A DNA stretch of 63,595 nt from an uncultured Alphaproteobacteria bacterium (GTDB lineage Bacteria; Pseudomonadota; Alphaproteobacteria; HIMB59). Shown one piece after another: positions 9,985-27,913 of this stretch. The notes beneath the pieces were generated by a model. The model was given only the letters and a program-made list of their open reading frames with translations. It was not told where the DNA came from and did not search any database. The translations under genes were made by a program, and so were the position numbers. The stretch covers positions 1-63,595 of the forward strand of contig CABZNL010000006.1 in assembly GCA_902527045.1 (NCBI GenBank). The letters are read 5' to 3'. Position 1 is the stretch's first letter, and each line of letters starts with the position of its first letter.

Positions 9985-10752
9985 TTATTTTGCTGTCCAT
10001 CCACCATCTATGACTAATGATGATCCTGTCATCATTGATGATGCATGAGAGGCCAAATAAACAACAGCGGTGGCTATATCACTTTCAGTAGCAAATCTTC
10101 CAAGAGGAATATTATTCAAAGTTTTCGCTTTAAAACTTTTATCTAGGAAGAATTTTTTTACCATAGGTGTTTCAACAAAAGTAGGACATATAGAATTCAC
10201 TCTAATGTTATTAGAAGCTAAGTCTATCGACATACCTTTAGTTAATCCCTCAATACCAAATTTTGTCATGTTATAAGTGCTTCTATTAGGGGCTCCAACT
10301 TTGCCTAATTGAGAAGACATATTAATAATACTCCCCCCAATAGATTTTCTATTTTTGGATTGCAACATTTTATTAGATGCTAATTGAGCTATGTGAAAAG
10401 CTGATTTTATATTTAAATCAACCATATAATCCATATCTTTCTTTTTAATTTTTGTAAAATGTGAAGGAATATTAGTACCAGCATTATTTACTAGAATATC
10501 AAGTTTCTTAATTTTACTAAAAATATTAATCACTTGATTATTATTTAATATATCACATACAAAATATTTACATTTTCTTTTTAATTTTATTATTTCTTTT
10601 TCTACTTTTACAAGATCTGATTCAGTCCTACTTAAAATAATTAAATTTGCACCAGCTTCAGCGAGGGCTATTGCTGAAGCTCTTCCAATGCCTTTTCCTG
10701 CACCTGTGACTAAAGCTATTTTATTTTTTAAATCAAAACTCTTTAAATACAT
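9985..10752 (-). CDS. short-chain dehydrogenase/reductase
   Basis: The 255-residue protein is a classical SDR. It has the cofactor motif TGAGKGIG (16-23), NNAG (89-92), catalytic Ser147, and Tyr160-x3-Lys164. It is the third gene of a minus-strand operon behind an NTF2-like protein and an HpsN/HisD-like dehydrogenase. It probably oxidises or reduces a hydroxyl or keto group of the same substrate. In C3-sulfonate (DHPS) pathways an SDR, HpsO, accompanies HpsN, but no sulfite-releasing enzyme is present here, so that assignment is only one possibility. Confidence 0.85.
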   Translation of the reverse strand: MYLKSFDLKNKIALVTGAGKGIGRASAIALAEAGANLIILSRTESDLVKVEKEIIKLKRKCKYFVCDILNNNQVINIFSKIKKLDILVNNAGTNIPSHFTKIKKKDMDYMVDLNIKSAFHIAQLASNKMLQSKNRKSIGGSIINMSSQLGKVGAPNRSTYNMTKFGIEGLTKGMSIDLASNNIRVNSICPTFVETPMVKKFFLDKSFKAKTLNNIPLGRFATESDIATAVVYLASHASSMMTGSSLVIDGGWTAK

Positions 10753-10763
10753 TCTTAATATTT

Positions 10764-12089
10764 CTAGTTATTTTTAATTTTAGATACAGGTTTTCCGTAT
10801 CCAACATTAATACCACCATACCTTCTTGCTCGAACATTACATTGTTCTGCATGACCTATAAAGCCCTCTAAGTGTGATAATCTCGAGCCATATTCTGCAA
10901 TTTTTGTTGCTGCTTCATCTGTTGTTATTTTTTGATAAGTATGTGTCTTAATAAATTTTCCAACCCATAGCCCACCTGTGTATCTTCCTGCTTTTTTGGT
11001 TGGCAAAGTATGATTTGTTCCTATTACTTTATCGCCGTTAGCAACATTAGTTCTTGCACCTAAAAATAAAGCTCCATATGAGGTCATATTTTCTAAAAAC
11101 CAATCATCTCTGTTAGTCATTACCTGAACATGTTCAGAAGCAATTTCATTAGCTTTTAACAACATCTCCTCATAAGTTTCACAATAAATTACCTCACCAT
11201 ATTCGCTCCAGCTTATACTAGCTGTATCTTTTGTAGGTAGAATTTCTAGTAGCCTATCTATTTCTTGCAGAGTTTCTTGTGCCAATTTTTTCGAGTTTGT
11301 TATCATTATTGCAGGGGAATTGTAACCATGTTCTGCTTGACCGAGTAAATCTGTAGCGCATATCTCTGCATCTACAGTATCATCACAAATAACCATAGTT
11401 TCTGTAGGTCCTGCAAAAAGATCAATACCAACTCTGCCAAATAATTGTCTCTTAGCTTCAGCAACATATGCATTCCCTGGTCCAACGAGCATATCTACAG
11501 CTTTTATTGTTTCTGTTCCAATAGCCATGGCACCAACACCTTGCATGCCACCTAAAACATATATCTCATGTGCACCACCCATTTTCATAGCTGTAACTAC
11601 TGCAGGATTTGGTTTTCCCTGAAAAGGTGGCGTTGTGGCTATAATTCTTGGTACACCAGCAACTGATGCTGTAACAACTGACATATGAGCAGATGCTACC
11701 ATTGGAAATTTTCCAGCAGGTACGTAACATCCTACAGCTTGTACAGGAATATTTTTGTGACCAAGAATAACACCTGGTTGAGTTTCTATTTCCATCTCAT
11801 TTAATGTCTTTAATTGTGCTACAGCAAATGATCTAACTTGTTCTTGAGCAAATTTAATATCATCAATATCTTCTTCAGATACTTCATTGATTAATTCATT
11901 AATTTCTTCTTCTGATAGTTTAAAGTGAGTAGGGGAGTAATTATCAAATTTTTCTGAGAGTTCTCTGATATATTCATCACCTCTTGACTCAATTTCTTTT
12001 AATGTATTTTCAACAATATCTTTGACTTTTTCGTTATCATCAAGCCTTTGTTTTTCATTAATGCTTTTCTTAATATATTCTATTGCCAT
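10764..12089 (-). CDS. HpsN-like dehydrogenase of the histidinol dehydrogenase superfamily
   Basis: This 441-residue protein belongs to the HisD fold, an NAD-dependent zinc enzyme oxidising an alcohol to a carboxylate in two steps. Visible features are VGPGNAYVAEAKR (202-214), IDLFAGPTE, Zn-type ligands Gln251 and His254 in GQAEHG, a catalytic Glu-His pair at 319-320, and His413 in GHAEQ. The stretch NHTLPTKKAGRYTGGLWVGKF is, to my knowledge, typical of sulfopropanediol 3-dehydrogenase (HpsN) and its relatives rather than histidine-biosynthetic HisD. There are no his genes around it. It is separated by 2 and 11 bases from its operon neighbours. Substrate is unproven. Confidence 0.75.
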   Translation of the reverse strand: MAIEYIKKSINEKQRLDDNEKVKDIVENTLKEIESRGDEYIRELSEKFDNYSPTHFKLSEEEINELINEVSEEDIDDIKFAQEQVRSFAVAQLKTLNEMEIETQPGVILGHKNIPVQAVGCYVPAGKFPMVASAHMSVVTASVAGVPRIIATTPPFQGKPNPAVVTAMKMGGAHEIYVLGGMQGVGAMAIGTETIKAVDMLVGPGNAYVAEAKRQLFGRVGIDLFAGPTETMVICDDTVDAEICATDLLGQAEHGYNSPAIMITNSKKLAQETLQEIDRLLEILPTKDTASISWSEYGEVIYCETYEEMLLKANEIASEHVQVMTNRDDWFLENMTSYGALFLGARTNVANGDKVIGTNHTLPTKKAGRYTGGLWVGKFIKTHTYQKITTDEAATKIAEYGSRLSHLEGFIGHAEQCNVRARRYGGINVGYGKPVSKIKNN

Positions 12090-12091
12090 AG

Positions 12092-13201
12092 TTATTTTTT
12101 ATGTATCAGTTTTAAAACATCAACATCTAACTGAAACAAAATATGAGCTATATCAATAGGCACCCAATTTTCTCTAATCAATCCTTCGTTGTGCAAATAA
12201 AAATCCATTACTCTCATTGTTATTATTTTTTGTGTAGCCTCATAACCAAGCCAGTCACTTGAGCCATGTGTTGCCTGAATACTGTGCCAACCACCTGTCA
12301 TCGAATAATTGCCATCACCAATTTCTATGTAATGACCAATTTTCCAATAGTCTCTCTCTTTAAACGTTAATCTAAATGGTAATTGATGGTGTTCAACAAA
12401 TCCTTTTAATCCCCTTGCTGTGCCAATACCGCAAGGTCCATACCACATCATTTTTGGATGCCAATAATCTTTTTGAGGATGGTTTATTAATTTTTCTCTG
12501 ACTGTATTTTTAGTAGATCCAAACTCGGTTTCCGGTTTTATGTTTAAACTTCTTTGCATTGTAAGATTTTGATTTAAGTTTTTTGATGATAAATCTGAGT
12601 CAAGATTTTCAAAAGTTACTCCATCTCCAGTGATAGGTCCTGGCCACATTTCTTCGATTCCTAAAGATGGATTTATAGGCCAAAAACCTGCCTGTCTTAT
12701 AAAGTCCATAATATCGATTAAGATATGAGAGTTTATAATTTTTTCATTTTCTATTTGATGAACTTCACATATTCGTAAATGTATAGTTTTTCCATTCGAT
12801 GGAACTCCTAACCAAGGATTGGCAAAGGTCCCTGTTAAATGACCAACTGTAGATACATAAACTCTATTTTGAAAACTTCCTCCGATAATTAAATTATCTC
12901 TTCTTTCTAAGTCGGGAAAAGAATAAATTAAAGGTTTCCAAAGAGTATTGATTATTTCATCAATTCCTTTTAATTCATTTACTGGATGAAAAGCATAGAT
13001 CTCAGCATTTTTATGGTATGCATCCTTAATATTATTGCTTAAGTTATCAAGATTGGACTCAGAAATTTTTTTTAATATATTTCTTATTTTTTTTTTATTT
13101 AAAATATTTTCTTTAGGATCTAAACTTATAATTTTAATTCCACTTTCTATCGGAATCCCAGTATCAAAATTTTTAATTTCACTCAAGTTATATTGCCTCA
13201 C
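12092..13201 (-). CDS. two-domain NTF2/SnoaL-like protein, subfamily A, copy 1
   Basis: The 369-residue protein has two NTF2/SnoaL-like domains, roughly residues 45-175 and 235-360. The N-domain carries HPVNELKG (72-79) and GHLTGTFANPWLG (120-132). The C-domain carries MMWYGPCGIG (251-260) and the ending RENWVPIDIAHIL (343-355). The same motifs in the same order occur in the protein at 17071-18072, so the two are paralogues. This fold makes small cyclases, isomerases, hydrolases and dehydratases; its job here is unknown. It leads the operon with the HpsN-like and SDR enzymes. The start codon is GTG. It diverges from the cupin gene with 84 bases between. Confidence 0.75.
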   Translation of the reverse strand: MRQYNLSEIKNFDTGIPIESGIKIISLDPKENILNKKKIRNILKKISESNLDNLSNNIKDAYHKNAEIYAFHPVNELKGIDEIINTLWKPLIYSFPDLERRDNLIIGGSFQNRVYVSTVGHLTGTFANPWLGVPSNGKTIHLRICEVHQIENEKIINSHILIDIMDFIRQAGFWPINPSLGIEEMWPGPITGDGVTFENLDSDLSSKNLNQNLTMQRSLNIKPETEFGSTKNTVREKLINHPQKDYWHPKMMWYGPCGIGTARGLKGFVEHHQLPFRLTFKERDYWKIGHYIEIGDGNYSMTGGWHSIQATHGSSDWLGYEATQKIITMRVMDFYLHNEGLIRENWVPIDIAHILFQLDVDVLKLIHKK

Positions 13202-13285
13202 CTATTAACATTAATAAATATTACTTTGATTAACTTTACAATTCGAATAATATTAAGAAATAATAAAATATTTAAATTCTAATTA

Positions 13286-14260
13286 ATGACGCAGGATATT
13301 AATAATCGTTTGGTTAAGTTTAGTGAGCTTGTTCCAAGTAAAATACCTTTTGTTGAAGGCAAACTTAAAGGACATCAAGATAGATTAAATTATTCTATCG
13401 TTGGTCCTGGCGTTAGTGAAGATACAAAACAAAATGTTAAGATAGCTGAGGAGCACGGATTTAATATTGGTGCTGTAAGTGCTGCACCAATGAATGGATC
13501 AGGGCTTCACAGTCACACGACAGCAGAAGTATTTTTAATATTCTCTGGCTCTTGGCGATTTTATTGGGGAGCAGAGGGAAAAGAAGGTGAAGTTACTTTA
13601 AATAAAGGTGATGTTGCTTCTTTTCCTACAAATATGTTTCGAGGGTTTCAAAATGTTAGTGATGAAAATGCTTTAATATTTGTTGTCTTAGGAGAGAATG
13701 ATCCAGGTGTTATTACTTGGACTCCAAAAGTTTTAGAAAAAGCTAAGGAGTCAGGAATGGTTTTACTTGATGATAATACATTAATAGATCTCGATAAAAC
13801 TAAAATCCCCGAAGGCAAAGAAGCTTTAGAACCTATAAAAGAAAAAGATTTAGAAACTTATGATCATTACACATCTGAAGAAATTGAAAATTACGTTATA
13901 CGTTATAAGGATAGAGATAAATATCTAAAAGATGACGAGCATTATGACTCTAATTCAATCTTAAACTATCTTGATCATTTTAATATCCACAATAAAGATT
14001 TTGATCCAAATATAGATCACAATACTGGTTTTGGCCTTACCATGTTAAAAGGAGTAAATGCTCACATTCATCCATACACTTTAAAAGAGTCTGAAGTTTA
14101 TTTATGTTTAGATGGTGAGTGGGAGGTAACATGTAATGATCAGAAAACTGTAATTGGTCCAAACGACTCCTTCTCATCTCCACGAGGGTCAACTAGAAGT
14201 TTAAAAAATATTAGTAATCAAGAAGGAAGCATTTTTATTATTCGACAAAAAAATCTCTAA
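13286..14260 (+). CDS. double cupin protein
   Basis: The 324-residue protein contains two cupin beta-barrels. The first has His75, His77 and Glu81 (GLHSHTTAEV). The second has His260 and His262 (AHIHPYTLKESEVY) with a following Glu. In both, the position where most cupins have a fourth metal-binding His appears to be Arg (NMFRGFQN and GSTRSLKN), so a three-ligand metal site is expected. Bicupins include dioxygenases and sugar or keto-acid isomerases; the reaction is not identifiable. It starts a four-gene operon with an NTF2-like protein two bases downstream. Confidence 0.75.
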   Translation: MTQDINNRLVKFSELVPSKIPFVEGKLKGHQDRLNYSIVGPGVSEDTKQNVKIAEEHGFNIGAVSAAPMNGSGLHSHTTAEVFLIFSGSWRFYWGAEGKEGEVTLNKGDVASFPTNMFRGFQNVSDENALIFVVLGENDPGVITWTPKVLEKAKESGMVLLDDNTLIDLDKTKIPEGKEALEPIKEKDLETYDHYTSEEIENYVIRYKDRDKYLKDDEHYDSNSILNYLDHFNIHNKDFDPNIDHNTGFGLTMLKGVNAHIHPYTLKESEVYLCLDGEWEVTCNDQKTVIGPNDSFSSPRGSTRSLKNISNQEGSIFIIRQKNL

Positions 14261-14262
14261 AT

Positions 14263-15234
14263 ATGAAGGGGTTTGATAAAAATTTTTTAGATCTTCCAGA
14301 TTATATTATAAAAATCACTTACCAAATCTGGGAAAAGAAAGATGTTGAGTCAATTAGAGATTATTATGCTGAGGGAATTCCAGTTAGATCTCCTGATGGT
14401 GTAATATATGGACCTGATGTAGTTGTAAAAGCCACTTATGCTACCTTAAATGAATTTCCAGATAGACAGTTATTAGGAGAAGATGTCATCTGGATTGGCG
14501 ATGAAGAACATGGATATTTATCTTCTCACCGAATTTTGTCAAAAGCTACACATTTAAATGATGGTATATACGGAAAGGCAACTGGAAAAACTTTAAAGTA
14601 TAGAGTTATCGCAGACTGCGCTTGTAAAAACAATCAAGTATATGATGAATGGCTTGTAAGAGATCAGGGTGCTATTGTACGTCAGTTAAATATTGATCCT
14701 AAAAAACAAGCTGCAAACTTAATTGAATTTCAAGGTGGCAAAGATAAATGCTCAATACCTTTTAACAACAGTACTTCACATGAAATTAAATACCTACAAA
14801 TACCTATATCGTCAAATAATACTGGAATTAACTATGCAAATATATTAAAAGAAATTTTTTATAACAATTTCAATATCATAGATAAGTCTTATGATAGATC
14901 TGTAAATCAAGAGCAGCCAGGAGGATTTAAAGCCTTAGGTGTAGATGAAGTAAAAAACTTTTGGATCTCACTAAGATCTACTTTTCCTGACTCTATTTTT
15001 AAAATTGAGCATATAAGCTATCTGGAAGAAAAAAATGAGTATAAAAAGGCGTCTGTTAGATGGTCACTAGAGGGACAACACTCAGGCACTGGTCTCTTCT
15101 CTAATCCCAGTAATGCAAATGTGCACATAATGGGAATATCTCAAGCTGAATTTGGTCCTAAAGGTATAAAAAATGAGTGGGTATTATTTGACGAAACTAT
15201 AATTTGGAAACAAATATTACTTCAAACAGGATAA
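14263..15234 (+). CDS. two-domain NTF2/SnoaL-like protein, subfamily B, copy 1
   Basis: The 323-residue protein carries two SnoaL/ester-cyclase-like domains, about residues 10-150 and 185-320. The N-domain motifs (IKITYQIWEKKD, NEFPDRQLLGEDVIWIGD, SSHRI, TGKTLKYRVIADCACKNNQ) are repeated in the protein at 18184-19323 in the same order. The C-domain has FPDSIFKIEHISYL and SVRWSLEGQHSGTG. No signal peptide is seen, so it is cytoplasmic. It sits between a cupin and an RraA-like gene with 2-3 base gaps, so the four proteins are probably co-translated and act on one pathway. The reaction is unknown. Confidence 0.75.
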   Translation: MKGFDKNFLDLPDYIIKITYQIWEKKDVESIRDYYAEGIPVRSPDGVIYGPDVVVKATYATLNEFPDRQLLGEDVIWIGDEEHGYLSSHRILSKATHLNDGIYGKATGKTLKYRVIADCACKNNQVYDEWLVRDQGAIVRQLNIDPKKQAANLIEFQGGKDKCSIPFNNSTSHEIKYLQIPISSNNTGINYANILKEIFYNNFNIIDKSYDRSVNQEQPGGFKALGVDEVKNFWISLRSTFPDSIFKIEHISYLEEKNEYKKASVRWSLEGQHSGTGLFSNPSNANVHIMGISQAEFGPKGIKNEWVLFDETIIWKQILLQTG

Positions 15235-15237
15235 GAA

Positions 15238-15942
15238 TTGAAACCCTTAACTAAAACAGAAAATAAAATTATCGAATACATAAGAAATTATGACACTCCA
15301 ACTATTTCTAATTCTCTAGAACTGTTAGACTCTTCACTAAGATCTAAAGGACATACTCAAAAAACTATGCATTGCTTAAATCCAAGATTAAAACCAATTA
15401 TCGGTTTTGCTAAGACTGCTATTATCACATCGACAAAAAAGAAAAATACAAACATTATAAAAAACAGAGATAAATATTATGAATATATGTTTGATGGAAA
15501 GTTTCCAAAAATTTGTGTTATAGAAGATAAGGATAAGAGTAATACAATTGGAGCATGGTGGGGAGAATTGAATGCTTCAATACATTTAAATTTTGGTTTT
15601 AAGGGAGCTATAACTAATGGAGCTATGAGAGACCTACAAGAGATAGATAAAAAATTTCAAATACTTAGTGGTGAAATAAGGGTAGGTCATGGATACAATC
15701 AAATTCATAATATAAATTGTGAAGTAAATATTTTTAATATGAAAGTAAAGCCCAATGATCTTATACATGCAGACTTTCATGGTGCTGTGATAATAAAAAG
15801 AGAATATTTAAAAAAATTACCAAATTTAATTAAAAGAATGATAAACAAAGAAAAAATTATTTTTAATTTTTTAAAAAAGAATAAAAATTTTTCAAAAAAA
15901 CAATTTGTTGAAAAATATAAAGAATTTTTAAATTCAAAATAG
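15238..15942 (+). CDS. RraA/HMG-aldolase family protein
   Basis: The 234-residue protein matches the RraA fold, which includes 4-hydroxy-4-methyl-2-oxoglutarate aldolases and related lyases. The recognisable core is GAWWGELNAS followed by GFKGAITNGAMRD (Arg131-Asp132), then the C-terminal PNDLIHADFHGAVIIKRE. The aldolases conserve Asp-x20-Arg-Asp; here the position 21 residues before Arg131 is Glu110. This may alter or abolish canonical aldolase chemistry. The extended lysine-rich C-terminus is unlike the family core. The start is TTG three bases after the NTF2-like gene; no better ATG is present. Confidence 0.7.
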   Translation: MKPLTKTENKIIEYIRNYDTPTISNSLELLDSSLRSKGHTQKTMHCLNPRLKPIIGFAKTAIITSTKKKNTNIIKNRDKYYEYMFDGKFPKICVIEDKDKSNTIGAWWGELNASIHLNFGFKGAITNGAMRDLQEIDKKFQILSGEIRVGHGYNQIHNINCEVNIFNMKVKPNDLIHADFHGAVIIKREYLKKLPNLIKRMINKEKIIFNFLKKNKNFSKKQFVEKYKEFLNSK

Positions 15943-15943
15943 T

Positions 15944-17074
15944 ATGGTATCTAAAATTCTTACTACACACGTTGGAAGTTTGCCAAGATCTAAACAATTA
16001 TCGGAGTATTTATTTGCAAAAGATAAAGGTGAAAAAATTGATAATGAAAAATTTGAAAATATTTTAATTTCAAATGTTGATCAAATAGTTAAAAGACAAT
16101 TAGAAGTTGGAATAGATTTTATAAGTGATGGTGAGATGAGTAAAATAAGTTATGCTACTTATATCAAAGACAGGATTGATGGTTTTTCAGGCGAGAGCGA
16201 AAGGAGAGCACCTGCAGATTTAGATGATTTTCCAGAGTACAAAGAAAAATTAGCTAATAGTGGAGGAACTCCAACTTATTCCAGACCTTGTTGCACAAAA
16301 GAACTTAAAATTAGAGATGAAAATTTATTATTGAACGATATTAATAATTTTAACAAATCATTAAAGAAATCGAACCACAAAAAAGCATTTATGAACTCAG
16401 CTTCTCCTGGTGTAATAAATGTATTTATGCCAAATAAATATTATAAAAATGAAGATGAATACCTCGATAAATTATCTATTATAATGTCAAAAGAATATGA
16501 ACAAATTACAAATTCTAATATTCATGTTCAATTGGACTGTCCAGATTTAGCACTAGCAAGACATATGAATTTTAAGGATTTAACAGAGGAAGAATTTTTA
16601 AAACGAGCAGAAATGCAAATTGAATGCCTAAATAATGCTTTATCAAATGTTGATAGTGAAATGACTAGAATGCATATTTGTTGGGGCAATTATGAAGGTC
16701 CTCACACTCATGATATAGCTCTTGAAAAAATATTACCTATCATTTTAAAATCTAAAATAAAATATTTTTTAATTGAGTCATCAAATCCTCGTCATGCACA
16801 TGAGTGGAAAGTTTTTGAAAAAATAAAATTACCAAAAGATAAAGTTTTGGTTCCCGGTGTAATAGACTCCACTTCAAATTTCATTGAACATCCCGAAGTA
16901 GTTGCAGAAAGATTAATAAAATATTCAACTGTTGTTCCAAAAGATCAATTAATGGCTGGTACTGATTGTGGTTTTAGTACTTTTGCTGGCTTTGGAAAAA
17001 TTGATGAAAATATTTGTTATGAAAAACTTCATGCACTTGTTGAAGGTACAAAACTAGCATCAAAAGTTATCTAA
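15944..17074 (+). CDS. MetE-like (cobalamin-independent) methyltransferase
   Basis: The 376-residue protein corresponds to the C-terminal barrel of MetE (UROD/MetE-like family) and lacks the N-terminal barrel of full-length MetE. It opens with LTTHVGSLPRS. A zinc site is intact: His244 and Cys246 (HICWGN), Glu278 (IESSNPRHAHE) and Cys342 (GTDCGF). Short relatives include core-MetE, epoxyalkane:CoM transferase and demethylases, so it likely moves a methyl or alkyl group to or from a thiol. As the last gene of the cupin-NTF2-RraA operon it probably handles a group from that pathway's substrate. Its stop overlaps the converging NTF2-like gene by four bases. Confidence 0.75.
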   Translation: MVSKILTTHVGSLPRSKQLSEYLFAKDKGEKIDNEKFENILISNVDQIVKRQLEVGIDFISDGEMSKISYATYIKDRIDGFSGESERRAPADLDDFPEYKEKLANSGGTPTYSRPCCTKELKIRDENLLLNDINNFNKSLKKSNHKKAFMNSASPGVINVFMPNKYYKNEDEYLDKLSIIMSKEYEQITNSNIHVQLDCPDLALARHMNFKDLTEEEFLKRAEMQIECLNNALSNVDSEMTRMHICWGNYEGPHTHDIALEKILPIILKSKIKYFLIESSNPRHAHEWKVFEKIKLPKDKVLVPGVIDSTSNFIEHPEVVAERLIKYSTVVPKDQLMAGTDCGFSTFAGFGKIDENICYEKLHALVEGTKLASKVI

Positions 17075-18072
17075 TTATTTAATTTTTTGTTTCTCTCAAG
17101 TAAATCAATACCAACACATTTTAAAAAATGTAAATGATCAATTAATATCCAATTTTCTGCAATTTTATCCTTATCTCTTCTATAAAGATCAACAACTCTC
17201 ATTTCCCCAATCAGATCTGTGTTTTGAGTTAATCCCATGTAATTTCCCTTGGGTCTCATTTTTAAATTCGGCCAACCAAACCATCCACCAAAGTTTCCCT
17301 CAGAATTTTCAAGAACATGGCCAGAAAACTCAATAAATTCCAAATTTTCTTCAAATGGTCCAGTATGCCCCTTTAAATATCCATCATATGTATATGATGC
17401 ACCAATACCTCCGGGACCCCACCATATCATATCGTCATGCCAGTCTTTTTCTAAATCTGAAACTGTTGTTCTCATTCCTTCACCAATTAATCTGTTTGCC
17501 ATTCTCATCATAAGATCCAGTGTTTTGTTTCCTTCTTCATCACTTTGTTTTTCAAAGTATAAACCATCATGAGTTTTTGGTCCGGGATTGAAACCGATCA
17601 TTCCAGTTGAGTCTGGCACTACAGATAATTTTAAGTGTTGCATAAATTTCAAAATATCTAAAAAAAATGCACCTTCAGTAATTTTGTTATTTTCTACTTT
17701 GTAAAACTCGCAGTACCAAAGCATTACTGTTTTTTTTGTTGGCTCGATTCCAAAAAATGGATTATTAAAACTACCAAGTAGATGTCCCATATTTACAACC
17801 CATTTTGATGAATGGTTATCAACTAAGTTTGTTCCAGCATAAAAAATATCCATCCTTCTTTGTATTGGTTTAAAAGATTTTTTAATTGGAGACCAAAGAT
17901 ATTTGGCAATTTTATCAGCTCCTTCAAGTTCATTAAAAGGATGTGTACATTTCATATTAAAATTTTCAGATGTATATTTAGATATTATTTCAACTAAATT
18001 ATTTTCATCTGCATTATCAATTGCATTTAAAAATTTTAATACTAATAATTTTTCTGTTTGAAAATCTGGCAT
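17071..18072 (-). CDS. two-domain NTF2/SnoaL-like protein, subfamily A, copy 2
   Basis: The 333-residue protein repeats the architecture of the 12092-13201 product. The N-domain has HPFNELEG (44-51) and GHLLGSFNNPFFG (97-109). The C-domain has WHDDMIWWGPGGIG (211-224) and ENWILIDHLHFL (306-317). It lacks the N-terminal extension of copy 1. It stands alone on the minus strand, converging on the MetE-like gene and diverging from subfamily B copy 2. Function unknown; a role as cyclase, isomerase or lyase is possible from the fold. Confidence 0.75.
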   Translation of the reverse strand: MPDFQTEKLLVLKFLNAIDNADENNLVEIISKYTSENFNMKCTHPFNELEGADKIAKYLWSPIKKSFKPIQRRMDIFYAGTNLVDNHSSKWVVNMGHLLGSFNNPFFGIEPTKKTVMLWYCEFYKVENNKITEGAFFLDILKFMQHLKLSVVPDSTGMIGFNPGPKTHDGLYFEKQSDEEGNKTLDLMMRMANRLIGEGMRTTVSDLEKDWHDDMIWWGPGGIGASYTYDGYLKGHTGPFEENLEFIEFSGHVLENSEGNFGGWFGWPNLKMRPKGNYMGLTQNTDLIGEMRVVDLYRRDKDKIAENWILIDHLHFLKCVGIDLLERNKKLNN

Positions 18073-18183
18073 AAATTTATTTATAATATAAAAAATAAAA
18101 TAACAATATTCATTTTATAAAAATATTATTGCTTTAAATTTTATTTAGTAGTATTTCTTGAATTGTACAATTTAAAAAATTTA

Positions 18184-19323
18184 ATGAGAAATAAGTTAAT
18201 AAAAGATATAAAACCAACTCCCTTAAAAGATCATCATATGCCTAAGAACTTTAATGTATCTCTTAAAGCCTATGGCGGAGGAGGTAATACTAAATCCTTA
18301 AACCCGAAACCTAAATCTCTATCTCCTCAATCAACAAAAGGTTTTGAGAGACAATATAAAAATATTATTGATTATATTGTAAGAATTACCTACACAATTT
18401 GGGAAGAAAAAAACATAGGTTATATTTATGATACCTACAGTCCAGAATGCCGTGTTTGGGACGAACTTGGACTACAATTTGGATCTGAAAAAATAGTATC
18501 TGACACAATTCATACGATTAATGCCTTTCCTGATATTAGATTATTTGCAGATGAGGTTATATGGGCTGGAGACGATAAAACTAGTTTTCATACTTCACAC
18601 AGAACTATTATTACCGGAACTAATACAGGTTATAGTAAGTTTTCAAAACCAACTGGTAAATCAGTGCGATTGTTTTGTATAGCTAACTGTGTCGCAAAGA
18701 ATAATGAAATATATTATGAAAATGTTGTTTATGATACTGCAGGTTTAATTAAACAATTAGGCTTAGATCTAAATGAAATTGCAAAACAAATTGCAAAAGA
18801 GGGAAATATTGGTCCTTTTGCTCCTAATTTTAAAAATTCAAAACCAAGAAGGAATATAAAAAAATTAAAGCCAATTAGTTATGAAATTCCAGATAAAATT
18901 ACAAATTTAAGAAAATTTGTACATGCTGTTTTCGATACGATTTGGAATAGAAGAAATTTTTCCGCAATAAAAAAAGTTTATTCAGTTAATATAGAATTTG
19001 AAGGATCAACAAGTCGTAAGTTTAAAGGATTACCTAAACTTAAAAATTTTATAATTTCACTAATAGCTTCTTTTCCTGACCTCGCACTTAGCATCGAAGA
19101 TCTTTATTGGATGGGGAATGATAAAGAAGGTTATTTAGTATCTATACGTTGGGGAGCGATAGGAACTCACAAAGGAAATGGTATATACGGAGATCCATCA
19201 AACAAAGAATGTTATTTGTGGGGTATTACTCAATGGGAGATAAAAAATAATAAAATCATAAAAGAATGGACTGGTTTTAACGAATTAGCAATTTTAATAC
19301 AAATTTTAGGAGAAAAAAAATGA
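18184..19323 (+). CDS. two-domain NTF2/SnoaL-like protein, subfamily B, copy 2
   Basis: The product (about 379 residues) is a paralogue of the 14263-15234 protein. Shared N-domain motifs are IVRITYTIWEEKN, NAFPDIRLFADEVIWAGD, TSHRT and TGKSVRLFCIANCVAKNN. C-domain motifs are FPDLALSIEDLYWMG and SIRWGAIGTHKGNGIYG. Unlike copy 1 it carries about 55 extra N-terminal residues rich in Lys, Pro, Ser and Gly, including a GGGG run, which looks disordered. The ATG at 18184 is chosen over an in-frame TTG at 18163; neither has a clear Shine-Dalgarno. It overlaps the next small NTF2-like gene by four bases. Confidence 0.72.
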   Translation: MRNKLIKDIKPTPLKDHHMPKNFNVSLKAYGGGGNTKSLNPKPKSLSPQSTKGFERQYKNIIDYIVRITYTIWEEKNIGYIYDTYSPECRVWDELGLQFGSEKIVSDTIHTINAFPDIRLFADEVIWAGDDKTSFHTSHRTIITGTNTGYSKFSKPTGKSVRLFCIANCVAKNNEIYYENVVYDTAGLIKQLGLDLNEIAKQIAKEGNIGPFAPNFKNSKPRRNIKKLKPISYEIPDKITNLRKFVHAVFDTIWNRRNFSAIKKVYSVNIEFEGSTSRKFKGLPKLKNFIISLIASFPDLALSIEDLYWMGNDKEGYLVSIRWGAIGTHKGNGIYGDPSNKECYLWGITQWEIKNNKIIKEWTGFNELAILIQILGEKK

Positions 19324-19739
19324 ATTTAGATGAGAGTAAAATTTTATTGGAAAAAATGTATGACGCTTTGAATGCTCAGGATTTAGAAGCACAACATCAA
19401 TATTGGAATGATGATATGATTTGGCATGGACCTCCTGGTTTTGGTGACATACACGGTATAGAAAATTTTAAGTATAAAGTTCTCAAGCCTTTTTATGAAG
19501 CTTTTCCAGACTATCATGTAAAAAATGATATTGTTGTCGCAGAAGGTGACTGGATAAGTGCAACAGGTTTTTTAACTGGAACTCATAGTGGAATATATCT
19601 TGGAGTAGAGCCAACTGGTAAGTCCATTAAAATGCAGTTTTCAGACTTTTGGACAATAAAAAATGGTAAATTTATGGACAATTATGTGATGGTTGATAAC
19701 CATGGTGTTTTTGAACAGATGGGTCTAAATTTTAAGTAA
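19320..19739 (+). CDS. single-domain NTF2/SnoaL-like protein
   Basis: The 139-residue protein is one SnoaL-like domain. Its WNDDMIWHGPPGFG (about 29-42) closely resembles the C-domain motif of subfamily A (WHDDMIWWGPGGIG), followed by the FPDYHVKNDIVVAEGD and GTHSG segments typical of SnoaL/polyketide-cyclase-like proteins and a VDNHGVFEQMG ending. Its start overlaps the end of the subfamily B gene (ATGA), so they are co-translated. It may act as a stand-alone equivalent of the subfamily A C-domain. Reaction unknown. Confidence 0.78.
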   Translation: MNLDESKILLEKMYDALNAQDLEAQHQYWNDDMIWHGPPGFGDIHGIENFKYKVLKPFYEAFPDYHVKNDIVVAEGDWISATGFLTGTHSGIYLGVEPTGKSIKMQFSDFWTIKNGKFMDNYVMVDNHGVFEQMGLNFK

Positions 19740-19863
19740 TTAAAAAAAATAGCGAAGAACCACATTTAATTTTCCGCGACGATTTCTCTAACATTCTTAA
19801 TTTATTTAATTTTGTATAAATAGCTTATATTAAATAAATATATTTAAATAGAAGAGGAAATAA

Positions 19864-21099
19864 ATGAAAAAACTACTAATAGCTTTATTGTTCTCGTTTG
19901 TATCTGCTAGTGCTTTTGCTGGTAGTCACTCACCATGTGGTGTTACCAACGGTTCAATAAATATTCTAGCTAACGAATTTACTACATACAGAATTTTTAT
20001 GGATGAAGTAAAAAGTTGTGCTGGACCAGATGCAGACTTTAATGTTACGCACTCTGTCGATCATAACAAATTACAAGTAGCAGCATTATCAGCTAACCCT
20101 GCAGAATTTTCTGCAAAACTAGTTACTAACGGATCAATAACACCTTTGATGAATGATGGTTTAATTCGTCCATTAGATGATCTAGTCGCAAAATATGGTG
20201 CCAACTTGAATGAAAACCAAAAAATTACTATTGATGGTAAAATTTACGCAGTTGCTTTTATGGCAAACGCTCAACATCTTTGGTACAGAGAGAGTATTCT
20301 TAACGATCTAGGTATTGATGTCCCATCTACATATGAAGAAGTAATTGCTGCTGCAGAAAAAATTAAAGCTGCTGGAGTAATGCCTAACCCATACGCAGGT
20401 GCATTTAAATCTGGATGGAATCTTGGACAAGAATTCGTAAACATGTACCTAGGTCATGGTGGAGAATTCTTTAAATCTGGCTCTGCCCAACCAAATGTTA
20501 ATAATGAAAAAGGAGTGGCAGCTCTTAACGTAATCAAAAAATTAACAGAATTAAGCAATCCTGACTTTTTAACACAAGATACAAACGCTGTTAAAGAGGA
20601 ATGGGAATCAGGCAATGTAGCATTGATGCATGTTTGGAATTCAGGAGCAGCTTCATTACTTGACGATGAAGGAGATCAAGCTATCAAAGCAGATACAAGA
20701 TTAGCTCCTTCTCCAAGTGTGGGTGGTGGTAGTAAGCCAGCTACAACTCTTTGGTGGGACGGTATAGGTATTTCAACTAACACATCTGATGAAAATGCTG
20801 AAGCATCTTTTAGGGCTCTTGTTGGAGCTGCTTCATCATCTGAACTAGCTAATGACAACCCAAACGCCACAGTTTGGTTAATTAAAGGCTACACACCAGG
20901 TGATACAGCTGGACCGGTTGTTGATGCAGCTAATAGAGGTGCAACTCCTTATCCAAGTTTTCCTCACATGAGTTTAATGCACGGTGCATTAAGTTCTGAA
21001 CTAGTGGAATTTCTTCAGGGTAATGAGTCTGCAGAAAAAGCTTTAGCAGACGTTGAAGCTGCTTATGTAGCTAAAGCTACTGAGCAAGGTTTTTTATAA
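19864..21099 (+). CDS. ABC transporter extracellular solute-binding protein (sugar type)
   Basis: The 411-residue protein starts with a cleavable signal peptide (MKKLLIALLFSFVSASAFA) and is a family 1 solute-binding protein. It shows FMANAQHLWYRESILNDLGI and the STYEEVIAAAEKIKAAG segment common to sugar-binding proteins such as the AglE type. It binds its ligand in the periplasm for the two permeases that follow. The leader GAAGAGGAAA gives a good ribosome binding site, and a strong hairpin follows the gene, fitting higher expression of the binding protein. The ligand is unknown; the neighbouring dioxygenase and dehydrogenase suggest it need not be a plain sugar. Confidence 0.85.
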   Translation: MKKLLIALLFSFVSASAFAGSHSPCGVTNGSINILANEFTTYRIFMDEVKSCAGPDADFNVTHSVDHNKLQVAALSANPAEFSAKLVTNGSITPLMNDGLIRPLDDLVAKYGANLNENQKITIDGKIYAVAFMANAQHLWYRESILNDLGIDVPSTYEEVIAAAEKIKAAGVMPNPYAGAFKSGWNLGQEFVNMYLGHGGEFFKSGSAQPNVNNEKGVAALNVIKKLTELSNPDFLTQDTNAVKEEWESGNVALMHVWNSGAASLLDDEGDQAIKADTRLAPSPSVGGGSKPATTLWWDGIGISTNTSDENAEASFRALVGAASSSELANDNPNATVWLIKGYTPGDTAGPVVDAANRGATPYPSFPHMSLMHGALSSELVEFLQGNESAEKALADVEAAYVAKATEQGFL

Positions 21100-21121
21100 A
21101 CTAACACAAATAAAATTTGAT

Positions 21122-21152
21122 AGAGTGGATCTTAATGATCCACTCTTTTTTT
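21122..21152 (+). terminator. intercistronic hairpin with T tract after solute-binding protein gene
   Basis: AGAGTGGATC (21122-21131) and GATCCACTCT (21137-21146) form a perfect 10-bp stem with a TTAAT loop, followed by a run of T. It lies between the binding-protein gene and the first permease gene. It probably acts as a partial terminator or as an mRNA 3'-end stabiliser that raises binding-protein output over permeases. Confidence 0.75.
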
Positions 21153-21165
21153 CTGAATAAACTTA

Positions 21166-22194
21166 ATGCCTCATAAAACTTTCTTTTGGTTTATTTTTCC
21201 TACGGGATTAGCAATGATACTCTTCATAGGACTTCCTATAGTATCAAGTTTTTTTCAATCTCTTCATATTGAGACCCAGCAAGTTTTAATGGAAGTTGAG
21301 AACTGTGATCCCTTCGGATGCCAAACTAATGTTCGTGTTGATGTAGAGGCAACTGATAAATTAAGAGAAGAAAACCCTTTAGGGAGATTTAATGGATTTG
21401 GTACTTATTTAGATAGAAATCATTTAGCTTTTGATGAAATAGGAGAAGCTTGGAATAGTTCTTCATCAATGGGTGAATTTAAAGATATAGTATTAAATCT
21501 TCCATTTTATAAAGCTTTATTATTTACTTTAACCTTTTGTTTTGCTGTCACACCACCAGTAATCTTTTTAGGTTTCATAGTAGCTTTAAGTATAAATACT
21601 TTAGCAAAAATCATTAAAGGTCTCATAGTCTTTGGAACAATTTTACCAATGATTGTTACACCTCTAATTGGTTCTCTTGTTTTGTTTTGGATGATTGACT
21701 CACAAGGTATAATTGGTGCAAGTATTCAAATTCTTTTTGATGACCCTAATCTTTCTTTAAAAGCCTCAAGTAATCTAACTTGGATTACACTTATTATTTA
21801 TGGAATATGGCATAATACTCCTTTTGCATTTGTTGTATTTTACGCAGCCCTACAAACTGTACCTCAAGATCCAATTGAAGCAGCTTATATAGATGGCGCT
21901 TCGAGATTTCAAAGAGTTCGTTACATTGTAATTCCACATTTATACCCTGTTGCAACATTTATAATGTTAATTTGTTTGATGGATAATTTTAGAGTTTTTG
22001 AACCCATAATTGGGTTCTCTGCAGAAGGAGTAGCGCAGTCTCTTTCATGGATGATTTATCAAGATTTAAGAAATGAAAACAAAATGCTTTTTGGATCTGC
22101 AGGTGCCACTTCTATGTTAACTATAATTGGTATAGCAATTTTACTAACCCCTGTGCTTATAAGAACATGGAAAGAATTTAGAACTGAGAGATAA
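21166..22194 (+). CDS. ABC transporter permease (sugar type, MalF/AglF-like)
   Basis: This 342-residue integral membrane protein has an N-terminal helix and then a periplasmic insertion of roughly 75 residues (about 30-105) with a CDPFGC cysteine pair. Five further helices follow. The cytoplasmic EAA loop reads EAAYIDGASRFQRVRYIVIPHLYP. It pairs with the permease immediately downstream and with the preceding binding protein. No ATPase gene is in this operon. Confidence 0.85.
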   Translation: MPHKTFFWFIFPTGLAMILFIGLPIVSSFFQSLHIETQQVLMEVENCDPFGCQTNVRVDVEATDKLREENPLGRFNGFGTYLDRNHLAFDEIGEAWNSSSSMGEFKDIVLNLPFYKALLFTLTFCFAVTPPVIFLGFIVALSINTLAKIIKGLIVFGTILPMIVTPLIGSLVLFWMIDSQGIIGASIQILFDDPNLSLKASSNLTWITLIIYGIWHNTPFAFVVFYAALQTVPQDPIEAAYIDGASRFQRVRYIVIPHLYPVATFIMLICLMDNFRVFEPIIGFSAEGVAQSLSWMIYQDLRNENKMLFGSAGATSMLTIIGIAILLTPVLIRTWKEFRTER

Positions 22195-23076
22195 ATGGAT
22201 ACTAGAATACATAAATATTCAAAACAGCTGATAATCATAAACAGTATTTTTATTTTATTTTGGCTGACAATTTCAATTTTTCCATTTATTTGGACTTTAT
22301 GGGGATCATTCAAAGTAAAAGCAGATTTCTTTTCTAGAGCTGAATGGACTTATGCACTAAGTGGCTTCAATACTTTAATAGAAACAGGAGCAACTACTAC
22401 AGTTAAAGCTTATATCGAGTCATGGACAGAAGGTGAATTTTGGAGAGCCTCTATGAATACAATAATCGTAACAGTATCTGTTGTATCCATTTCATTGTTT
22501 CTTGGAACTTTAGGTGCCTATGCTCTATCAAGATCAACCTATAAGTATACTTTTTATATTTTAATTGCTGCTCTTATATTTAGAGCAATGCCTCATATAA
22601 CTTTAGTCTCAGGTTATCTATTTCCATTTTTTCAATTAAATATTTGGGGAATTTTACCAACTACAATCATTGTGCTTGTTGCAATTAATCAACCATTTAC
22701 ATTATGGCTTCTTTATTCATTTTTTAAAACTGTGCCAAAAGAATTAGATGAAAGTGCATTAATTGATGGTTGCTCTTACTTCCAAGCTTTTCGATATATA
22801 ATTATGCCTGTTATGTGGCCAGGTGTTGTTACAGCGGGTTTATTTAGCATGATGTTAGCCTATAACGATTTTACTGTTACTGCTTTATTGTTAAATCAAG
22901 AGAACTACACAATGGTTCCAAAAATCAATGCTTACTTAGGAACAGTTGAATACGGTGGTAATTATATGTGGGCTGTCTCTAGTGTTGTTTCAGCGACGGC
23001 ACCACTATTCATGATTATATGGTTTTTTCAACGTCAACTGATTAGCGGTTTAACTGCTGGCGCTGTAAAAGGTTAA
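22195..23076 (+). CDS. ABC transporter permease (sugar type, MalG/AglG-like)
   Basis: The 293-residue membrane protein starts directly after the stop of the first permease. It has six predicted helices, and an EAA loop reading DESALIDGCSYFQAFRYIIMPVMWPG. It is the second half of the translocation pore. The next gene encodes a dioxygenase rather than the expected ATPase, so the energising subunit must come from elsewhere, perhaps the MalK-type ATPase at 51521-52567. Confidence 0.85.
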   Translation: MDTRIHKYSKQLIIINSIFILFWLTISIFPFIWTLWGSFKVKADFFSRAEWTYALSGFNTLIETGATTTVKAYIESWTEGEFWRASMNTIIVTVSVVSISLFLGTLGAYALSRSTYKYTFYILIAALIFRAMPHITLVSGYLFPFFQLNIWGILPTTIIVLVAINQPFTLWLLYSFFKTVPKELDESALIDGCSYFQAFRYIIMPVMWPGVVTAGLFSMMLAYNDFTVTALLLNQENYTMVPKINAYLGTVEYGGNYMWAVSSVVSATAPLFMIIWFFQRQLISGLTAGAVKG

Positions 23077-23120: not shown

Positions 23121-23969
23121 ATGACTGATTACCAAATTAACAATTTAACTCCAACAATAGGTGCAGAAATTTCAGGTATAGATTTATCCAAAGATCTCAA
23201 TTCACAAAACTTAGACAACATTTACAAAAATTTAATACAACACAAAGTAATTTTTTTTCGTAATCAGAACTTAAAACCAGAGGACCACATCGCATTTGCT
23301 AAGAGCTTTGGTGATATTGAACCCCCACATCCTATCTATCCACATGTGGAAAATTTCCCTGAAATTACTTTATTGGAGAACGATCCTTCTAACCCCCCTG
23401 ACACAGATGAATGGCATACTGATGTAACTTTCAAAACAAAACCACCTTTCACTTCCATACTTTATAGTAAAGAAATACCACCATCGGGTGGAGATACATT
23501 ATGGTGTTCACTAACAGCGATTTATGACGATCTTCCAGAAAATATTAAATCTGACTTAGAGACAAAAAGAGCAGTACATGATATGGGCGCATTTAGAAAT
23601 AACTTTAGCAGCGATGATAATGAAGAATACTCAAAAAAATTAAATGCAGGTTTTGAAAAATTTGGAAATGCTGTTCATCCAATCATTAAGGTTCATCCAA
23701 TATCTAAAAAAAAGTTTTTATATATTAATCCGAGCTTTACACGTCATATAATCGGTCTAGACATGACTGACTCTAATAATTTACTCTCTTACCTATTTAA
23801 CTTTATGACAAAGCCACAGTATCAAGTTAGGTTTAAGTGGACTCCAAATACTTTAGCTTTATGGGATAATAGATGTACTATGCATTATGCTATTGGCGAT
23901 TACCTACCACATCGTAGAGTTATGAACAGAATAACTGTTCTTAATGATAAGAGAGAAATTTTATTATAG
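23121..23969 (+). CDS. TauD/TfdA-family 2-oxoglutarate-dependent dioxygenase
   Basis: The 282-residue enzyme shows the Fe(II) triad His99-x-Asp101 (EWHTDVTF) and His255 (RCTMHYAIGDY). Arg266 follows in the usual position for binding the 2-oxoglutarate carboxylate. Members hydroxylate a carbon next to a sulfonate, amine, ether or quaternary nitrogen, which often breaks the molecule and releases an aldehyde. An aldehyde dehydrogenase gene follows, fitting that logic. It is 44 bases downstream of the permeases, so the imported compound is likely the substrate. Confidence 0.88.
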   Translation: MTDYQINNLTPTIGAEISGIDLSKDLNSQNLDNIYKNLIQHKVIFFRNQNLKPEDHIAFAKSFGDIEPPHPIYPHVENFPEITLLENDPSNPPDTDEWHTDVTFKTKPPFTSILYSKEIPPSGGDTLWCSLTAIYDDLPENIKSDLETKRAVHDMGAFRNNFSSDDNEEYSKKLNAGFEKFGNAVHPIIKVHPISKKKFLYINPSFTRHIIGLDMTDSNNLLSYLFNFMTKPQYQVRFKWTPNTLALWDNRCTMHYAIGDYLPHRRVMNRITVLNDKREILL

Positions 23970-24028
23970 TTAAGTTTAGATTTTATTAATAATTTTAACA
24001 TTGAATATATTATGTTAATAATCTTCCT

Positions 24029-25459
24029 ATGATTGATAAAAGGAAATTTTATATAAATGGTGATTGGGTAGATCCTGTAAATAAAAATGATTGTAATGTA
24101 ATTGATCCATCTACAGAAGAACCATACGTTACTATTTCACTAGGAAGTAAAGACGATACCAATAAAGCTGTTGAAGCTGCAAAAAAATCTTTTTTAACAT
24201 GGAAAAATACCTCGAAAGAAGAGCGTATTGAACTTTTAGAAAAACTTTTGAAAATTTATAGAAATCGCTCTGAAGAAATGACAAATGCAATATCAAAAGA
24301 ACTTGGGGCACCTTTAGACTGGGCATCGTCCGCACAGATGGGTTCTGGTGAGTCTCATATAGAGGACTTTATTAAAAGATTAAAAGAGTTTGAATTTGAG
24401 TCAAATTTTGATGAGAACTCTGACAATTATATTGTCTATGAACCAATAGGAGTTTGCGGTTTAATAACTCCTTGGAATTGGCCAATTAATCAAATTGCTT
24501 TAAAAGTTATACCTGCCTTTGCTACTGGGTGTACGATGATCTTAAAACCATCTGAGATGGCACCTTTATCAGGTTTATTATTTGCTGAAATGATACATGA
24601 AGCCGGTTTTCCTGCTGGTGTTTTCAATTTAGTAAATGGAGACGGTGCTGGTGTTGGATCACAAATTTCAGGTCATCCAGATATAGACATGGTTTCTTTT
24701 ACTGGTTCAACTCGTGCTGGAAAACTGATTTCTAAGAATGCTGCTGATACAATTAAAAGAGTTTGTTTAGAACTTGGTGGAAAGGGCGGAAATATAATTT
24801 TTGCAGATGCATACCCAAATGCTGTTAGAGATGGTGTAAGAAATATTATGAGCAATGCTGGTCAATCGTGTGATGCCCCGACCCGTATGTTAGTTGAAAA
24901 ATCTATTTATGAAAAAGCTGTTCAAGAAGCTGCAGACGAAGCTAATAAGATAGGTGTAGATTTACCTTCTAAACCAGGTGACCACATTGGACCTGTGATT
25001 AATAAATCACAATTTGATAAAATACAGTCATTAATTCAAAGTGGTATTGATGAGGGGGCAACACTCGTAGCTGGTGGAGCTGGTAGACCATCTAATTTTG
25101 AAAAAGGCTACTATGTTAAACCAACCGTATTTACGAATGTTAAAAATGAAATGAGAATAGCTAAAGAAGAAATTTTTGGTCCAGTTCTGTCTATTATTCC
25201 ATTTGACTCTGAAGAAGAAGCAATCTCAATCACTAATGATACCCCTTATGGTCTTGGTAATTTTTTACAAACAGAAGATAAAGAAAGAGCTAGAAGAGTA
25301 TCGAAACAACTCAGAGCTGGTGTAGTTCAAATTAATGGAAATGCTCCAGACTCAGGAACACCTTTTGGTGGATACAATCAATCTGGAAATGGCCGAGAGG
25401 GCGGAACATGGGGCCTACATGAATATTTGGAAGTTAAAGCGATAAGTGGGTGGAAGTAG
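24029..25459 (+). CDS. NAD(P)-dependent aldehyde dehydrogenase
   Basis: The 476-residue enzyme has the complete aldehyde dehydrogenase set: Asn150 (TPWNWP), cofactor loop FTGSTRAG (224-231), general base Glu248 (LELGGKG) and nucleophile Cys281 (GQSCDAPTRM). It would oxidise an aldehyde to the acid, plausibly the product of the preceding dioxygenase. The VOC gene begins at the base after its stop. The exact substrate class cannot be fixed from these motifs. Confidence 0.9.
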   Translation: MIDKRKFYINGDWVDPVNKNDCNVIDPSTEEPYVTISLGSKDDTNKAVEAAKKSFLTWKNTSKEERIELLEKLLKIYRNRSEEMTNAISKELGAPLDWASSAQMGSGESHIEDFIKRLKEFEFESNFDENSDNYIVYEPIGVCGLITPWNWPINQIALKVIPAFATGCTMILKPSEMAPLSGLLFAEMIHEAGFPAGVFNLVNGDGAGVGSQISGHPDIDMVSFTGSTRAGKLISKNAADTIKRVCLELGGKGGNIIFADAYPNAVRDGVRNIMSNAGQSCDAPTRMLVEKSIYEKAVQEAADEANKIGVDLPSKPGDHIGPVINKSQFDKIQSLIQSGIDEGATLVAGGAGRPSNFEKGYYVKPTVFTNVKNEMRIAKEEIFGPVLSIIPFDSEEEAISITNDTPYGLGNFLQTEDKERARRVSKQLRAGVVQINGNAPDSGTPFGGYNQSGNGREGGTWGLHEYLEVKAISGWK

Positions 25460-25840
25460 ATGATAGGATTTGTCATGGTTGGAACAAACGATTTAGACAG
25501 AGCTATTGATTTCTATGACACTATTCTTGAAATAATCGATTTAAAAAGAGTTGAAAAAACAGAAACATACGGGTCTTATGCCCCAAAATCAAATTCCGAC
25601 GCAATAGAATTCTACGTTACTGTTCCTCACAATAAAGAAAATGCCACTGTGGGTAATGGAACTCAAATTTCTTTTTACATTGACAAAAAAGAGACTGTTG
25701 ACTTGTTTCATTCAACTGCAATAAGCTTAGGCGCTAAAGATGAAGGCGCACCTGGTGAAAGATATGAGGGCGAGTATTATTCATACCTTAGAGATTTAGA
25801 TGGTAACAAGATTTGTGGTTACACGTATTTCACTAAGTAG
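25460..25840 (+). CDS. glyoxalase/VOC-family protein
   Basis: The 126-residue protein is a single VOC module made of two beta-alpha-beta-beta-beta units: an opening FVMVGTNDLDRAIDFYDTIL and a closing YYSYLRDLDGNKICGY. The C-terminal position that is Glu in metal-binding glyoxalases (DGNxxE) is occupied by Cys, and the N-terminal His is absent, so a classical metal site looks incomplete. It may be a divergent isomerase or a binding protein. It abuts the aldehyde dehydrogenase without a gap. Confidence 0.8.
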   Translation: MIGFVMVGTNDLDRAIDFYDTILEIIDLKRVEKTETYGSYAPKSNSDAIEFYVTVPHNKENATVGNGTQISFYIDKKETVDLFHSTAISLGAKDEGAPGERYEGEYYSYLRDLDGNKICGYTYFTK

Positions 25841-27905: not shown

Positions 27906-27913
27906 TTATTTAT

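Follow-up and report, generated by a model that had tools for sequence, protein, structure and literature searches.

Two-domain NTF2/SnoaL-like proteins in a conserved, probably catabolic operon of HIMB59 alphaproteobacteria

The window analysed here is a 63,595-nucleotide stretch (contig CABZNL010000006.1) of the draft genome of an uncultured alphaproteobacterium of the order HIMB59 (assembly GCA_902527045.1; 1.15 Mb, 82% complete, about 1150 genes), and it carries five genes for SnoaL/NTF2-like proteins grouped in a single locus. We propose that these genes belong to an operon which probably serves the catabolism of a small, polyhydroxylated (sugar- or cyclitol-like), presumably methylated compound imported by a dedicated sugar-type ATP-binding cassette (ABC) system. 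NTF2-fold proteins are known mainly from polyketide and steroid chemistry, and an unusual set of five to six of them, with small pockets, would form here the working core of a catabolic pathway. The first-pass annotation of this DNA had suggested either a multi-enzyme pathway acting on one substrate class or a hetero-oligomer. The pathway is supported by a conserved synteny, by a dedicated importer and regulator and by the near-perfect co-occurrence of the NTF2 genes with a bicupin gene in 100 relatives of the order, whereas an obligate pairing of the two families of two-domain proteins, A and B, is not. Neither finding that would have spoken against the first-pass reading was made: the two proteins modelled gave NTF2 folds, and the genes do occur together in other genomes.

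The NTF2/SnoaL gene set and its predicted structures

The five open reading frames are present where they had been annotated and all match Pfam PF07366 (SnoaL; E-values from 7e-12 to 7e-25), in two stretches for four of the five proteins, which agrees with the nine domains initially counted. A profile search of the whole genome returned exactly nine PF07366 matches, all within positions 12128–19718, seven of them exceeding the cut-off and two lying below it yet with E<1e-3. The chance that five random genes of the approximately 1150 land inside nine consecutive genes is about 5e-9. The interweaving with a double cupin, an RraA-like and a MetE-like gene was likewise recovered, genes matching PF07883, PF03737 and PF01717 being located between the SnoaL genes. 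The extent first given to the cluster holds for the SnoaL span, but the true unit is wider (approximately 9985–23076) and adds an HpsN-like dehydrogenase, a short-chain dehydrogenase (SDR) and the sugar-type importer, including its solute-binding protein (SBP). Its features are as follows.

9985–10752, minus strand: SDR1, short-chain dehydrogenase (Pfam adh_short_C2, 5e-56; YxxxK and TGxxxGIG present)
10764–12089, minus strand: HpsN-like NAD-dependent four-electron alcohol dehydrogenase, histidinol dehydrogenase superfamily (PDB match; motif GKFPM)
12092–13201, minus strand: A1, two-domain SnoaL/NTF2 protein (Pfam, AlphaFold model, tree)
13202–13285, no strand: divergent intergenic region of 84 bp between A1 and the bicupin, likely a promoter region
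13286–14260, plus strand: CUP2, bicupin with an HxH...E metal-type motif in both halves (Pfam Cupin_2, PF07883, 2.6e-17, two stretches)
14263–15234, plus strand: B1, two-domain SnoaL/NTF2 protein, most widely conserved member (Pfam, AlphaFold model, alignment)
15238–15942, plus strand: RraA-like aldolase/decarboxylase, GxxRD motif (Pfam RraA-like, PF03737, 1e-16)
15944–17074, plus strand: MetE-like (core-MetE) zinc methyl/alkyl transferase (Pfam Meth_synt_2, PF01717, 1e-13; H, C, E, C ligand motifs)
17071–18072, minus strand: A2, two-domain SnoaL/NTF2 protein (Pfam, tree)
18184–19323, plus strand: B2, two-domain SnoaL/NTF2 protein (Pfam, tree, start comparison)
19320–19739, plus strand: C, single-domain SnoaL/NTF2 protein (Pfam, conserved residues)
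19864–21099, plus strand: SBP (SBP_bac_1) of the sugar-type ABC importer (domain match; SBP in all 66 loci studied outside the order)
21166–22194, plus strand: sugar-type ABC permease 1 (domain match; conserved synteny)
22195–23076, plus strand: sugar-type ABC permease 2 (domain match; conserved synteny)

The annotated start of B2 at 18184 is better than that of a longer TTG frame from 18163, as shown by stop codons just upstream of 18184 in the longer frame of three close relatives.

The evidence for the fold consists of AlphaFold2 models for A1 and B1 and of the Pfam matches for A2, B2 and C. Both models display two NTF2 domains (predicted local distance difference test scores of 87 for A1 and 93 for B1), and their top Foldseek matches are the two-domain polyether epoxide hydrolases MonB and Lsd19 together with single-domain SnoaL cyclases; A1 reaches Z scores up to 18 against SnoaL-like PDB proteins (VIA-align). 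A sequence search found no solved two-domain structure of the A/B family. The C protein resembles the C-terminal domain of the A proteins, both keeping a Trp-x-Gly segment and a pair of Asp residues (D109 and D126 in C, D333 and D350 in the C-domain of A1). The conserved set of B1 differs from it, with H89-R90, H97, D118, D128-E129-W130 and R133-D134 in the first domain and Y210-D211-R212, R266-W267, H273, E296, E305 and D310-E311 in the second. Polar, pocket-type residues, the C-terminal Asp included, are conserved in A1, A3 (a further A group described below), B1 and C, and A2 is the least conserved of the NTF2 proteins. Considering the SnoaL fold, these conserved residues may be catalytic.

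The tree of the two-domain proteins is divided into two superclades, A and B, with separate groups A1, A2, A3, B1 and B2 within them, most of which are also found in Roseobacters, Rhizobiaceae, Paracoccus or Vibrio; members of the set are present in a haloarchaeon as well. A recent tandem duplication is ruled out by this tree, the paralogs being older than the split of HIMB59 from the Roseobacters. On these sequence comparisons the NTF2 set is an old conserved unit with ancient orthologous groups, and since the paralogs are old and have been kept separately, separate roles can be argued.

Conservation of the operon within and outside the order

Among the 100 relatives of the order, 72 have an A-type match and 69 a bicupin, all of the latter among these 72 (Fisher p 9e-22, uncorrected for relatedness). 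The A-type matches of the three genomes without bicupin are only partial or located at a contig edge. B2 was found in 51 of the 100 relatives, all again among the 72. The gene order is stable (HpsN-like, A1, bicupin, B1, RraA in part of them, MetE, an optional A2, B2, C, then the SBP and two permeases) and this synteny spans two families of the order, the second of which adds a third A-type gene. A LacI regulator precedes the SBP in several of these relatives, the SDR is also present, and a HAD hydrolase occurs in the f2 relatives. B2-bearing loci share one SBP clade, whereas loci devoid of B2 carry other SBP variants, which suggests that B2 belongs to a peripheral module tied to the transporter variant. 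Taken together, the HpsN-like gene, A1/A3, the bicupin, B1 and MetE make up a core module, and A2, B2 and C a module that is optional in HIMB59, which points to a single core pathway to which a peripheral branch is added. In the relative G038 (L038, 4825–17249), the HpsN-like gene, the SBP gene and one permease gene are each split over two frames and A2 contains five stop codons; this locus looks like a decaying copy of the cluster.

Outside the order, plasmids of Ruegeria, Octadecabacter, Marinovum, Paracoccus, Vibrio and Halobellus bear three to five genes annotated as “ester cyclase” clustered with a sugar-type importer, and a scan of the GTDB genomes gave at least 581 relatives of B1, the hosts being mostly marine or hypersaline; B1 is about 50% identical to its Ruegeria counterpart. 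A set of 66 full-length loci, mainly from Rhodobacterales and Roseibium, with Halomonas, Thiotrichaceae, Geminicoccaceae and Desulfosarcinaceae, displays the operon (A2)–sugar-type ABC importer–C–HpsN-like–A3–SDR–LacI–B1–bicupin–MetE-like–α/β-hydrolase–RraA-like. Among these loci, which are the best-scoring ones and mutually close kin, so that the percentages do not describe independent samples, the transport and regulatory genes are nearly universal (SBP 100%, permeases 98–100%, LacI 97%, ATPase 91%); A1/A3 are present in 98%, C in 92% and A2 in 50%; the enzymes follow with the HpsN-like protein in 95%, the bicupin in 94%, MetE in 91%, RraA and SDR each in 85% and the α/β-hydrolase in 68%.

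An obligate A:B hetero-oligomer is not supported because two lineages break the A/B pairing: Halobellus has four A-type genes and C with no B, and a locus of Vibrio europaeus has an A-type gene with no B-type neighbour. The plasmid of the haloarchaeon Halobellus limi (L051, 8554–14947) groups its four A-type two-domain genes with the C-type gene, a MetE-like gene and an ABC importer, which suggests a transfer between domains of life. The NTF2 genes of Marinovum and Phaeobacter piscinae have two further neighbours (L055, 20695–22840; L057, 13711–15774), one being SBP56-like and of the methanethiol-oxidase family, the other hypothetical and about 215 codons long.

The MetE-like family also extends to three sphingomonad plasmids, where a gene 43–45% identical to that of the operon is found inside methoxy-aromatic O-demethylation loci or next to them; these contain DesA/LigM-like, MetF and PurU genes, together with an α/β-hydrolase of the same family as that of the operon. 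In Croceicoccus, LigK, an RraA-family aldolase, occurs together with MetE-like and DesA/LigM-like genes, DesA and LigK exceeding their curated cut-offs. These loci provide an association, though no proof of a link, between methoxyl groups and the MetE-like family. The sphingomonad MetE-like gene overlaps by 4 bp a gene for a single-domain NTF2 protein (SnoaL_4; L154, 9001–10517; L156, 8995–10508; L157, 5995–7520), which may serve in these bacteria as the partner subunit to a core-MetE.

Downstream of the importer, the window encodes a TauD-like dioxygenase, an aldehyde dehydrogenase, a glyoxalase and two homocysteine S-methyltransferase-like proteins (23121–28900), which give way to other genes in several same-genus relatives. 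The genes at 23121–26778, found in only part of the relatives of the genus, were rejected as part of the unit, the five same-genus relatives examined (L141, L144, L147, L148, L151) having other genes after the importer. Further along (33369–42961), a glycine-betaine-type ABC importer (ProV/ProW/ProX-like) flanks genes for a bisC-family molybdopterin S/N-oxide reductase, a GcvT/DmdA/trimethylamine N-oxide demethylase-like protein, an SDR and a beta-keto acid cleavage enzyme of the BKACE type; this region is probably a separate catabolic cluster for a methylated osmolyte.

Accompanying enzymes, proposed pathway and alternative substrates

The best PDB match of the HpsN-like protein is the sulfopropanediol (DHPS) 3-dehydrogenase 8v35 (E 5e-110), ranking above HisD, and the catalytic Glu-His pair and Zn ligands of the HpsN/HisD superfamily of Zn dehydrogenases (GQAEHG, ASEH, GDK and the C-terminal His) are kept in the alignment, GQAEHG being present in all 73 orthologs. 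HpsN is defined by the motif GRY(A/S)H, whose His126 binds the sulfonate, and HisD by GSAPL (PMC11382572). The window protein has neither motif, though it passes the broad TIGR00069 cut-off of HisD; it carries GKFPM at this site, as do 71 of the 73 cluster orthologs. The GKFPM proteins constitute a third subgroup that retains the Zn/NAD machinery and should not be expected to recognise a sulfonate in the same way. Catalytic motifs are likewise intact in the SDR (YxxxK in 69/69), in the RraA-like protein (GxxRD in 65/65 relatives outside the order) and in the MetE-like protein, which lacks an N-terminal domain and has the zinc ligands His-x-Cys, Glu and Cys of core-MetE (69/69 relatives outside the order). 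The RraA-like protein belongs to the superfamily by its PF03737 match and this motif, and scores 24–29 bits against the NCBIfam LigK/CHA aldolase models TIGR02798 and NF006731, with cut-offs of 304.5 and 179. In the bicupin (conserved residues H75, H77, E81 and R119) HxH...E is kept in 73/73, and the customary third cupin His is apparently replaced by Arg. The importer has the composition of the sugar-type (CUT1) family, namely SBP_bac_1 and two BPD permeases, and its ATPase does not adjoin the cluster in the window. As the closest solved relatives of the SBP are generic sugar binders with weak scores, no ligand is proposed for it.

From the genes present, the folds predicted for A1 and B1, the ancient and separate NTF2 groups, the conserved order of the operon, the importer and LacI regulator of the relatives and the intact catalytic motifs of the HpsN-like, MetE-like, RraA-like and SDR proteins, we infer the following pathway for the probable polyhydroxylated substrate. 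The HpsN-like enzyme would oxidise a CH(OH)-CH2OH end to the acid, with transfer of four electrons, the MetE-like enzyme would transfer a methyl (or alkyl) group, with homocysteine or another thiol as the acceptor, and the bicupin could perform an oxidative or isomerising step. The NTF2 proteins would carry out proton-transfer (acid–base) steps, for example hydrolysis, isomerisation or elimination, between alcohol oxidation, demethylation and aldol cleavage, with candidate pockets formed by Asp/Asp in C and the A C-domains and by His/Arg/Asp/Glu in B; the resulting oxo-acid would be cleaved or decarboxylated by the RraA-like enzyme. Several observations weigh against this proposal: MetE and RraA are not universal, being absent from about 9% and 15% of the outside loci, respectively, and the second family of the order having no RraA; the Halobellus and Vibrio clusters are devoid of several core genes; the NTF2 neighbour of MetE in sphingomonads belongs to a different subfamily, SnoaL_4, and shows no significant sequence match to those of the operon; and a sugar-type SBP is no proof of a sugar ligand.

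Regarding the substrate itself, an O-methylated sugar or methyl-cyclitol is a tentative candidate, suggested by the sugar-type ABC importer and LacI, by an L-fuconolactonase-like amidohydrolase in Ruegeria (E 1.5e-35, under the cut-off), by a PcaD-like hydrolase and by the HAD hydrolase of the f2 relatives. In such a route the SDR would make a lactone, lactonases would open the ring, the NTF2 proteins would dehydrate or isomerise the acid, and the MetE-like and RraA-like enzymes would demethylate and cleave the product; yet sugar kinases, glycosidases and sugar dehydratases of known type are all absent from the conserved set, and the amidohydrolase is outside the common operon (0/66). These compounds are at least as likely as mycosporine-like amino acids (MAAs) or gadusol, for which a complete pathway looks doubtful. 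There, the NTF2 proteins would release the amino acids by hydrolysis, the MetE-like enzyme would strip the ring methoxyl and the bicupin would open the reductone ring in the manner of acireductone dioxygenase or quercetinase, while the HpsN-like enzyme would convert C5-CH2OH to COOH. From 4-deoxygadusol, according to our own chemical reasoning, demethylation would give the reductone, and cupin cleavage with hydroxymethyl oxidation would give 4-carboxy-4-hydroxy-2-oxoadipate, which an RraA-family (LigK-like) aldolase would split to pyruvate and oxaloacetate. The carbon-by-carbon chemistry, as we derive it from established structures, would suit four enzymes; MAAs bear a ring methoxyl and Vibrio harveyi has been suggested to remove their amino acids (PMC3083659). 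The mostly marine or hypersaline hosts and the company of LigK in Croceicoccus are also consistent with it. This version is however opposed by the score of the operon RraA, far under the LigK cut-offs, by the cupin lacking the usual third histidine and by the SDR, LacI and lactonase-like hydrolases, which it leaves without explanation.

Catabolism of an S- or N-methylated osmolyte (a sulfonium or betaine linked to a polyol) is unlikely. The SBP56-like genes of Marinovum and Phaeobacter piscinae, dimethylsulfoniopropionate genes nearby in Marinovum and sarcosine oxidase genes adjoining the Vibrio pelagius cluster point to it, but sarcosine oxidase and SBP56 neighbours were rejected as general clues, the 66 outside loci showing none of these neighbours apart from two weak sox-like matches, and the methionine synthase near the V. 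pelagius cluster has a DUF1852 gene as its partner and is probably part of another system. Tailoring of a polyketide or other secondary metabolite, as the Pfam name and the SnoaL cyclase fold would imply, is very improbable, as is a role as non-enzymatic ligand-binding proteins: the window cluster has no polyketide synthase or other biosynthetic gene, an importer and a LacI regulator are nearly universal instead, and the conserved pocket-type residues of A1, A3, B1 and C argue against simple binding. The known DHPS catabolism of hpsN clusters is scarcely credible despite the PDB match of the HisD-like protein and the adjacent SDR, because GKFPM replaces GRY(A/S)H with its sulfonate-binding histidine; membership of this pathway was rejected on that motif, and neither the window cluster nor the annotated regions yielded a recognisable SuyAB or any other sulfonate gene.

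That streamlined marine bacteria and hundreds of other genomes, mostly marine, keep a dedicated uptake and breakdown operon implies that the substrate of the proposed pathway is a dissolved compound both abundant and so far unrecognised. The pathway would assign a function to large protein groups now labelled only “ester cyclase” or “NTF2 family”, and the cultured carriers (Ruegeria, Leisingera, Roseibium, Halomonas) make the substrate question directly testable. Were the MAA version true, the breakdown of major marine UV sunscreens would take place in streamlined oceanic bacteria, in Roseobacters and, partly, in a haloarchaeon.

Comparison with known systems

The fold, the Pfam family and the individual enzyme superfamilies are already known. 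No description of the conserved operon, of the dehydrogenases with GKFPM or of the two-domain families A and B and their joint use was found in the open-access literature searched, which did not extend to mycosporine catabolism and constitutes weak evidence in this respect. The closest solved relative of the dehydrogenase, HpsN (8v35), shares with it the residues for Zn/NAD four-electron alcohol oxidation, but the operon enzyme is devoid of the sulfonate-recognising His126 and its conserved GKFPM sets apart a separate orthologous group. Similarly, the MetE-like protein and the core-MetE methionine synthases of the MesA-D type consist of the C-terminal MetE domain only, with the H/C/E/C zinc ligand motifs; the operon protein nevertheless scores below all NCBIfam methionine synthase cut-offs and is set among NTF2 proteins in a catabolic operon, whereas the MesA-D type pairs with DUF1852. 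The sphingomonad lignin O-demethylation loci (DesA/LigM, MetF, PurU, LigK) have in common with the operon the MetE-like protein, the α/β-hydrolase family, an NTF2-fold protein and an RraA-family aldolase, but their aldolase is a true LigK and the stretches read contain no HpsN-like protein, bicupin, two-domain NTF2 protein or sugar importer.

With the SnoaL-family polyketide cyclases (PF07366; SnoaL, AknH, IdmH, SnoaL2), the operon proteins share the NTF2 fold, the Pfam family and a similar domain size. They differ by their fusion in pairs, by their occurrence as several copies per operon with an importer and out of any polyketide context, and by an identity of 10–20%. MonB and Lsd19 also have two NTF2 domains per chain; their domain arrangement is different (template-modelling score 0.3–0.4, root-mean-square deviation of about 16 Å), their identity to the operon proteins is about 10%, and their role as polyether epoxide hydrolases is biosynthetic.

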